A DNA stretch of 64,000 nucleotides from an uncultured Flavobacteriales bacterium (GTDB lineage: Bacteria; Bacteroidota; Bacteroidia; Flavobacteriales_D; Sanyastnellaceae): positions 1 through 64,000 of the forward strand of contig CALKGK010000045.1 in the NCBI GenBank assembly GCA_938085105.1, written 5' to 3'. The notes under the pieces were generated by a model. The model was not told where the DNA came from, made no database searches, and worked only from the letters and a program-made list of their open reading frames with translations. Shown here piece after piece: positions 1-15,794 of the stretch; the first letter of the stretch is position 1; every line of letters begins with the position of its first letter. The position numbers were made by a program, and so were the translations under genes.

Positions 1-41
1 CCTAGTGACTTACGTCTCCCACTTCGATTCTTCTTTAAATC

Positions 42-100: not shown

Positions 101-123
101 GTCTATAGTTTTAGGTCTCCAAG
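101..123 (-). repeat. Secondary motif (B) between core repeats
   Basis: This 23-bp stretch matches 202-224 at 16 of 23 positions, and its 3' half matches 8-22. Its end, GGTCTCCAAG, resembles the end of the core, GGTCGCAAG, so the B motif may be a diverged core. Distances between core and B ends alternate 60 and 42 bp, which sum to 102. Confidence 0.6.
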
Positions 124-143
124 CCTCGATTCATCTCAAAATC

Positions 144-165
144 ATTGACCGGCTTAGGTCGCAAG
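144..165 (-). repeat. 22-bp core repeat, left array copy 2
   Basis: Starts exactly 102 bp from the previous copy. On the minus strand it begins CTTGCGACCTAAGCC, the same C-for-G variant as the copy inside the IS1595-like gene at 14521-14542. Confidence 0.85.
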
Positions 166-14499: not shown

Positions 14500-15378
14500 T
14501 TAAGCGGCTAAAGTGAGAGCATTGAACGGCTTAGGTCGCAAGAATATTCGATATGGTAGCCAGGGTAAGTGAATCATGGCTTTCAAACAATTCAAAAAGG
14601 CAAAGGACCCGAATACCTTGTTCATCTTTCTGTAATTGAACTCAACACAGTAGTAATATAGATGCTTGGACGAGATGATTTTGTGCGTAGATTGAATCCA
14701 ATCAACCAAATCAAAGCGATAATGAATAACATCTTCTGATGTTTTCATTCCCAAGTGGATGCGGTTCTTCCAATTGTCTTGAGCCCGTGCATTATTTCTT
14801 AAAATTTGTATGCGTTCTGCTTCACTATGGAAGGGTGGAACCCGATGAAAAAAAGTCACTTGAGAGGAAAATGGGAACGTGTGATACTTGTAGGTCGTCA
14901 ATTTAACATGGGCTTCCAAAGACAGGCCGACGGTTGGAGTTTTTAATAGAGGTTTAGACAAATGGGAGAGGAGTTTACCCCCAGGCGTAGTTCTAAAGCT
15001 TCGATTTTCAAACTTGGACATGGCGTGCTGTACTTTGCGTTTGAAGAACCAGCTTGTTTCTTGAGTAATCCCATAATCTCGAGATAGGCGATGCGAAGAA
15101 GCGCTTTCATAATTGATGGTTAGCCGGTGTGTGATTTGAAAAGCTTTCATCAAAGGGAATTTGATTTTATGAAACAGTGTTCTTGCGGTTGCTGATTCAT
15201 CATAACCGCATCGGGTACATCTTTTATGGTGCCATTTTTTACCTGAACAGTATTTTTTGTGATTACATTTTCTGCATCTAAACCCTTTTCCCCATTTGGT
15301 ATCCATCAAGAACAGATAGCACTCGTTTTCGGTGATGAAAAAGTCAGAAAACCCTTGTGTTTGTTTGTACGCAGTCAT
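14500..15378 (-). CDS. IS1595-like transposase-derived protein lacking a DDE centre
   Basis: A 292-residue protein related to IS1595/ISXO2-type transposases. Residues 32-60 are the zinc ribbon (C35, C38, C54, C57), followed by the family block SATARTLFHKIKFPL and a helix-turn-helix-like stretch (ASSHRLSRDYGITQETSWFF, 93-112). The C-terminal helix block STHKIISSKHLYYY...FNYRKM (230-252) matches the family's end. The middle, where IS1595 enzymes carry DE...D...E catalytic residues (VDExxxGG and beyond), holds none of these motifs (about 125-215). The DNA-binding parts are kept and the catalytic centre is lost or unrecognisable. Residues 279-286 (FLRPKPFN) are encoded by a copy of the 22-bp repeat. 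Length is near normal and no frameshift is seen, so it looks maintained rather than decaying. Confidence 0.75.
   Translation of the reverse strand: MTAYKQTQGFSDFFITENECYLFLMDTKWGKGFRCRKCNHKKYCSGKKWHHKRCTRCGYDESATARTLFHKIKFPLMKAFQITHRLTINYESASSHRLSRDYGITQETSWFFKRKVQHAMSKFENRSFRTTPGGKLLSHLSKPLLKTPTVGLSLEAHVKLTTYKYHTFPFSSQVTFFHRVPPFHSEAERIQILRNNARAQDNWKNRIHLGMKTSEDVIHYRFDLVDWIQSTHKIISSKHLYYYCVEFNYRKMNKVFGSFAFLNCLKAMIHLPWLPYRIFLRPKPFNALTLAA
14521..14542 (-). repeat. 22-bp core repeat inside the 3' end of the IS1595-like gene
   Basis: On the minus strand it begins CTTGCGACCTAAGCC and ends TTCAAT, 21 of 22 identical to the three right-array copies but in opposite orientation to them. With the copy at 15569-15590 it forms an inverted pair bounding 1,070 bp that holds the whole upstream part of the gene. 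The flanks (GTGAGAGC and TGCTGGTA) show no target-site duplication. Confidence 0.9.
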
Positions 15379-15424
15379 ATGAAGAACTTTCTGGTAAGTT
15401 AGTATATCTAGCTCTTTTTCAGTT

Positions 15425-15458
15425 GTTCATCCACAAACCCAAAGTGTTCATCTACAAA
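15425..15458. repeat. Direct repeat pair upstream of the IS1595-like gene
   Basis: GTTCATCCACAAA (15425-15437) and GTTCATCTACAAA (15446-15458) match at 12 of 13 positions and start 21 bp apart, two helical turns. They lie 47-80 bp before the ATG of the minus-strand gene, a position suitable for a regulator site. Confidence 0.5.
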
Positions 15459-15568
15459 TTCATTTGGTAAGAAACCTTAGACTGTTGAGTTTATCTGGAA
15501 GTGCTTTTTAGCCTTTTGACTCCCATAAATTAGATCCATCTTTTTAGCGTTTAGTTCAAGATCATCAG

Positions 15569-15590
15569 CTTGCGACGTAAGCCGTTCAAT
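15569..15590 (+). repeat. 22-bp core repeat, right array copy 1
   Basis: Begins CTTGCGACGTAAGCC and ends TTCAAT. It is the copy nearest to the IS1595-like gene and inverted relative to the copy at 14521-14542. Confidence 0.9.
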
Positions 15591-15670
15591 TGCTGGTAAA
15601 AAAATTGTGCTGCGCTCATGACGCTTTTCAGAGGCTCATATCAATCTCTTCGAATTGATAATAAAAGATT

Positions 15671-15692
15671 CTTGCGACGTAAGCCGTTCAAT
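15671..15692 (+). repeat. 22-bp core repeat, right array copy 2
   Basis: Identical to copies 1 and 3. It is followed by GATTTT, as are the left-array copies, so the conserved unit may extend to about 27 bp in some copies. Confidence 0.9.
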
Positions 15693-15772
15693 GATTTTCT
15701 TTGGCACCACAGAAATATAGCTACACACAAAAAACTCCCCAAATCCCCAAAACCACTGTCCAAAAAATCAAT

Positions 15773-15794
15773 CTTGCGACGTAAGCCGTTCAAT
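15773..15794 (+). repeat. 22-bp core repeat, right array copy 3
   Basis: Identical to copies 1 and 2. It directly abuts the A tract of the metalloprotease terminator at 15795, with no intervening base, so insertion or expansion of the array stopped exactly at the neighbouring transcription unit. Confidence 0.9.

Follow-up and report, generated by a model that had tools for sequence, protein, structure and literature searches.

The closest described relatives of the system considered here are the RAYT genes, which derive from transposases and are flanked by two inverted repeats, the same repeats being dispersed in intergenic mosaic clusters, with several gene and repeat classes per genome forming co-evolving RAYT-REP pairs (PMC2817692, PMC8266576). 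A third of RAYTs adjoin a BIME. MITEs, BOX and RUP elements are non-autonomous repeats descended from the ends of insertion sequences, BOX being mosaic; to our knowledge they are either relics or dependent on an active transposase in trans, and we know of no dedicated dead protein family kept with them, nor of a partner protein for the STAR elements of staphylococci. STAR loci differ between species (PMC3532100). Searches of the open literature that combined IS1595 with domestication, with catalysis-dead proteins or with repeat arrays (subscription journals lay mostly outside their scope) returned no description of the present system. The original note likewise knew of none of this kind, although RAYT-REP is a described and conceptually close relative.

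The locus lies in a window of 64,000 nucleotides, the whole stretch of DNA that was analysed, from an uncultured Flavobacteriales bacterium (G000), and was compared with a second species of the same genus (G001, public MAG JAQWFN01, Flavobacteriales). The following features of the window are relevant (repeat classes are defined below):

1 to 22, minus strand: class B-type repeat (GAGACGTAAGTC...) at the contig edge
42 to 62, minus strand: class A repeat of the left array
101 to 123, minus strand: divergent repeat TTGGAGACCTAAAACTATAGAC of the left array
144 to 164, minus strand: class A repeat of the left array
14500 to 15378, minus strand: gene of protein A (P0001), 292 amino acids, IS1595-derived, with zinc ribbon, HTH and C-terminal helices, DDE residues missing
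14521 to 14541, minus strand: terminal repeat of class A, inside the ORF at the 3' end of gene A, one base different
15427 to 15458, minus strand: double motif TTTGTAGATGA-N10-TTTGTGGATGA, period 21 bp, some 50 bp upstream of the gene A start codon
15570 to 15590, plus strand: class A repeat, right bracket on the 5' side of gene A and first of three array copies
15672 to 15692, plus strand: class A repeat, second array copy, 102 bp on
15774 to 15794, plus strand: class A repeat, third array copy, 102 bp on, adjoining the terminator-like hairpin of a convergent gene

The class A repeat measures 21 bp (TTGCGAC[C/G]TAAGCCG[G/T]TCAAT), and gene A is flanked by two inverted copies of it (14521-14541 and 15570-15590), an arrangement found both in the terminal inverted repeats (TIRs) that bracket IS1595 elements and in the genome-dispersed repeats that flank RAYT genes. 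The right-hand copies at 15570, 15672 and 15774 are identical, with spacings of exactly 102 and 102 bp and unrelated spacers; the bracket and the regular spacing first described are hence present, while the repeat is 21 rather than 22 bp long and the right-hand copies are three in all, not a bracket followed by three. Recurrence of repeat and spacing at 1-165 was likewise as first described: two class A copies with variant bases start at 42 and 144 on the opposite strand, again at a spacing of 102 bp, and repeats of other classes lie between them. This left array has a counterpart at the same position in G001 (C102:1-250). Allowing three mismatches or fewer, the class A 21-mer occurs at 23 sites in the genome and at none for the reversed control, which, with the core-pattern counts given below (59 vs. 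1), argues that the repeats are not due to chance. Target-site duplication is absent, as the 8 bp outside the ends (before 14521; after 15590, 15692 and 15794) do not match.

Protein A, whose orthologue occupies the syntenic position on G001 contig C102, contains the IS1595 zinc ribbon above the Pfam cut-off (Zn_ribbon_IS1595, PF12760, E 1e-5), gives a weak C-terminal match to DDE_Tnp_IS1595 and falls below the cut-off of the NCBIfam IS1595 model. Pfam and the alignment together place in this ORF the IS1595-type zinc ribbon, the HTH and the C-terminal part that had been read from the sequence. The lack of DDE residues noticed in protein A extends to the whole clade to which it belongs: VxVDE (first Asp), TDxW (second Asp) and the region of the third residue are missing from all nine full-length members of the two species and present in intact relatives, while the zinc ligands, the HTH and a C-terminal THxHISxKHLxYYxxEFxFR motif are kept. 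In the AlphaFold model of P0001, residues 7-120 have pLDDT above 90 and the C-terminal part is confident, residues 141-210 reach only 33-42, and no PDB fold is matched at E <= 1e-3. As a control, the intact relative L050, modeled from the same 17 sequences with the intact member first, showed confident RNase H strands (about 80-89) and matched two transposases (ISCth4, Mos1) at E <= 1e-3, integrase and Metnase falling narrowly short of that threshold; since alignment depth was equal, the difference from P0001 lies in the sequence. The middle is also the least conserved part of the protein (22-31% between orthologues), and its low pLDDT could come in part from divergence in a shallow alignment. 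No solved structure of a relative was found. Fold prediction, which had been proposed as a check, thus recovered the RNase H core in L050 and not in P0001, and neither the DDE triad (in alignment or models of the clade) nor the target duplication of an ordinary insertion sequence was found.

In the N-terminal domain, divergence by codon position amounts to 0.61 at third positions vs. 0.33 and 0.24 at first and second positions (P 8e-20), the excess being smaller in the C-terminal part (P 1e-5) and weak in the middle (P 0.001). To judge by this pattern, the proteins are under purifying selection in the two species and are not relics. They also evolve fast, with orthologue identities of about 41-50% vs. 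mostly 55-95% for neighboring genes.

Gene A is one of five related IS1595-derived genes in G000 (B on contig C37, C on C36, D on C44 and E on C35), all of which are full-length in G001. In G000 gene E is truncated, only its C-terminal part being left, fused in frame to an unrelated ORF (L040 2719-3546, C35) that may encode an acyltransferase, so at least one member is dispensable there. In the tree, A-E form a single clade (100/100) in which the A, B and D proteins of one species group with their counterparts in the other; loss of catalysis and duplication therefore predate the species split. The repeats adjoining each gene belong to one class, for A-D the same class as at the syntenic gene of the other species. 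The stop codon coincides with the TAA of the repeat core (as in GCG ACG TAA) in genes B, D and E of either species and, for gene A, in G001; at the 3' end of class C genes no repeat can be recognised. Because the stop codon of intact IS1595 relatives from other Bacteroidota likewise falls within or at a similar TIR (e.g., GCGACTTAACTTGG, TAAGCCGTTAAACC, TAACCCGTTAATCC), repeats and proteins evidently descend from an IS1595 element, of which the repeats are the terminal inverted repeats.

Other IS1595-like proteins without visible DDE residues occur in Pollutibacter soli (L161, L162), Ferruginibacter (L165) and two of the genomes searched (L058/L067/L076 in G006 and G025); the dead proteins of Pollutibacter and Ferruginibacter belong to a lineage of their own (99/96), and loss of catalysis in IS1595-derived genes seems to be recurrent in Bacteroidota. 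The idea that dead IS1595 genes give rise to arrays as a rule was considered and rejected, as those of Pollutibacter and of G006/G025 are accompanied by end pairs alone. In G050, from another family of the order, a dispersed element (L137-L140), probably a MITE, has an end that closely resembles class C (GCGACTTAAATGGATAACCCTA). No intact transposase of this kind was found in G000, plasmids held only distant IS1595 relatives, and a phage origin was rejected, with no relatives among phage records or viral contigs.

Four classes of array stand beside the five paralogous genes, so that the system is older and wider than first noted. All classes have a core like G[C/A]GAC[C/G/T]TAA in common (A, TTGCGACGTAAGCCGGTCAAT; B, TTGGGCGACGTAAGTCAATAGC; C, TTGGCGACGTAAATGGATAGC; D, ending in TAAGCCGATAGC), and the core pattern occurs at 59 sites in G000 (reversed control 1) and 64 in G001 (control 0), these counts being lower bounds because the pattern misses mixed D/C arrays at the ends of contigs as well as those class D arrays that contain GGGCTACTTAAGCCGATAGC. 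Both genomes are drafts whose contigs often end in arrays, and all repeat and array counts given here are lower bounds. With about 60 strict copies per genome the sites are dispersed, as had been supposed. In 112 other genomes of the family the same pattern has 0-2 sites each, and among the genomes searched either protein or arrays were present only in the two species of this genus; the two therefore co-occur, and no genome with arrays and without the protein was found among those searched. Since the carriers are two draft genomes of one genus, this co-occurrence counts as a single phylogenetic event.

The arrays are intergenic and head-to-tail, hold 1-9 copies, often alternate between two classes (A and B, or D and C) and break off abruptly at a repeat. 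Over all arrays the inter-repeat spacings cluster near multiples of about 11.2 bp (35, 46, 57, 68, 79, 102, 113, 124, 136). Helical phasing at 10.5 bp was rejected, the best period being about 11.15 bp (R 0.66 vs. 0.37 at 10.5, p <= 5e-4); we do not build on this period, because the arrays have a common ancestry and the spacings can be explained as sums of about 34 and 45. A replication-polarity signal of the KOPS or Chi type was also rejected, as array orientation compared with third-position GC skew gave no consistent sign and hence no preference for replication direction, and so was an RNA element, the repeats having no stable fold and no Rfam match; with fold z-scores of -0.4 to +1.9 they are not hairpin-forming palindromes. 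On G000 contig C44, at 45.29-45.68 kb (L245 15291-15680), a gene-less element consists of an inverted pair of class D ends spanning 156 bp, after which come two further direct copies at about 115-118 bp, i.e., the plan of a gene locus without its gene.

By their flanking genes, ten arrays as well as the five genes could be placed at corresponding sites in the two species, with the same array orientation relative to neighbors in every flank that could be matched (the lone mismatch is a gene common to two neighboring array windows). Repeat sequence, number and period differ between the species: class C ends in GGATAGC in G000 and GGATAAG in G001, and class A has GGTCAAT in G000 and GGTTATC in G001. 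Class A repeats are 0.87-0.91 identical between loci within a species vs. 0.755 between orthologous arrays (permutation p 0.002), class C repeats 0.88-0.89 vs. 0.82 (p 0.0002), and the same comparison gave p 0.024 for class B; class C spacers are likewise homogenised within each species. As loci within a species are more alike than orthologous arrays, the repeats bear the mark of concerted evolution. Two arrays lie at rearrangement breakpoints: the left flank of the gene A array is joined in G001 to the right flank of the C9 array, its own right flank beginning a contig, and the flanks of the C12 array are on different G001 contigs, one of them joined to another gene. Whole gain or loss was seen for a class B array on G000 C37 absent from G001 C82 and for a G001 C95 array absent from G000 C47, and arrays present in one species only imply that not every array is indispensable.

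Upstream of eight of the nine full-length clade genes lies a motif of the form TTTGTGNATGA-N10-TTTGTGNATGA (21-bp period, <=3 mismatches), followed in four cases at exactly 25 nt by TAnnTTTG, presumably the -7-like promoter element of Bacteroidota. The double motif has 34 sites in G000 and 29 in G001 (controls 1 and 2) and several times precedes orthologous genes of both species. It was also observed upstream of the orthologues L200/L201, of a GldL-like protein (L185/L188) and of an XRE-type HTH gene (L202); in the search for the motif's regulator, scans of four other proteins downstream of it yielded only the GldL-like domain and the XRE-type HTH. Given the conservation of the motif and its presence before other orthologous genes, the clade genes seem to be wired through it into a small host regulon common to the two species.

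With a probability of roughly 0.62, we read the system as a domesticated, catalysis-dead, multi-class analogue of RAYT-REP, whose proteins bind arrays homogenised by recombination. An IS1595-family insertion sequence was domesticated in the ancestor of the genus; its transposase lost the DDE site and RNase H core, kept the end-binding zinc-ribbon/HTH and C-terminal helical domain and was duplicated into genes A-E before the species split, as shown by alignment, tree, models and codon-position divergence. The former transposon ends bracketing each gene would most likely be bound by its own protein, and ends amplified outside the genes have given rise to the intergenic, head-to-tail and often mixed-class arrays. 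These arrays are long-lived at the same chromosomal sites and homogenised within species, the homogenisation most likely being due to inter-array recombination rather than to transposition. As multivalent platforms to which the dead proteins attach, they would most likely have an architectural or regulatory role in the chromosome, while a host regulator acting through the 21-bp-phased double motif seems to control the genes. The domesticated DNA-binding system with dispersed sites that was originally proposed is thus supported in part, by the clade-wide DDE loss, the co-occurrence and the spread of sites, whereas the binding and the cellular role are something that we infer.

It is also conceivable, if unlikely, that these are functionless selfish relics, i.e., decaying IS1595 copies, solo ends or MITEs that tandem slippage turned into arrays. 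The repeats are transposon ends, the element on C44 combines inverted ends and extra copies without a gene, MITE-like elements with related ends occur in G050 and G025, some arrays exist in one species only and gene E is broken in G000, all of which suits decay. Nonetheless, nine full-length ORFs that have stayed intact at about 41-50% identity and whose codon positions bear signs of selection, a conserved upstream motif and ten arrays that have kept site and orientation despite sequence divergence speak against a simple relic, and decay also fits poorly with the absence of target duplications and of an intact transposase of this kind in G000. Less probable still is a RAYT-like activity, in which the repeats continue to be spread or copied in trans by the proteins, perhaps aided by a host nuclease or by replication. 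The inverted repeats flanking the genes, the extra copies beside them, the dispersed mosaic arrays, their gain and loss between species and the homogenisation within species would all be expected of it; yet catalytic positions and RNase H core are missing, the repeats neither are palindromic nor fold, and about half of the array sites are common to both species and not scattered. The lost active site and the shared sites thus speak against a copying enzyme, and the early suggestion of a protein moving or copying repeats is improbable as direct catalysis, even though arrays are still gained, lost and homogenised. Quite unlikely, too, is that the dead proteins occupy IS1595-type ends and so block or titrate invading transposons, the arrays being by-products or decoys: such an inhibitor would account for classes that match end types of other Bacteroidota IS1595 elements and MITEs, for the fast evolution of the proteins and for the lack of an active IS1595 of this kind in G000, but it leaves the fixed array sites and the homogenisation unexplained, and no related active element to be repressed was found. 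Beyond the domesticated RAYT-REP analogue, a more tentative proposal, possible though less likely than not, is that each fixed array class co-evolves with a dedicated, fast-evolving catalysis-dead transposase in the manner of eukaryotic satellites and their binders, organising or marking the chromosome. Fixed sites, concerted change and paired fast-evolving proteins make the question of why dispersed bacterial repeats are kept directly testable.

As for known systems, the likeness to STAR elements lies in intergenic direct repeats with spacers, STARs too expanding and contracting; here, unlike STAR, many sites are common to both species and each class has a candidate protein. With MITEs, BOX and RUP the repeats share descent from the ends of insertion sequences, and the arrays do not have the MITE plan of two inverted ends without a gene, being head-to-tail single ends; the class D element on C44 is the one MITE-like case observed. 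IS1595 insertion sequences agree in zinc ribbon, HTH, C-terminal motif and TIR sequence, and differ in that here DDE residues, a predicted RNase H core and target duplications are absent and the TIRs are multiplied in arrays. RAYT-REP, with BIMEs and REPINs, comes nearest, through flanking inverted repeats, dispersed intergenic mosaic clusters and several gene and repeat classes. RAYTs, however, are HUH tyrosine transposases that keep their catalytic residues, whereas the clade A-E consists of DDE-type IS1595 derivatives without them, Pfam, NCBIfam and the alignment pointing to IS1595 and not to an HUH/Y1 transposase; and RAYT repeats are palindromic hairpins, whereas those described here are non-palindromic and stand in head-to-tail arrays, many at orthologous sites. 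With the wrong protein superfamily, no catalysis and no palindromes, the system is not a member of RAYT-REP. It would be a second, independent case beside it, from a DDE family and with catalysis lost altogether, so that upkeep and function of the arrays must rest on DNA binding plus host recombination.
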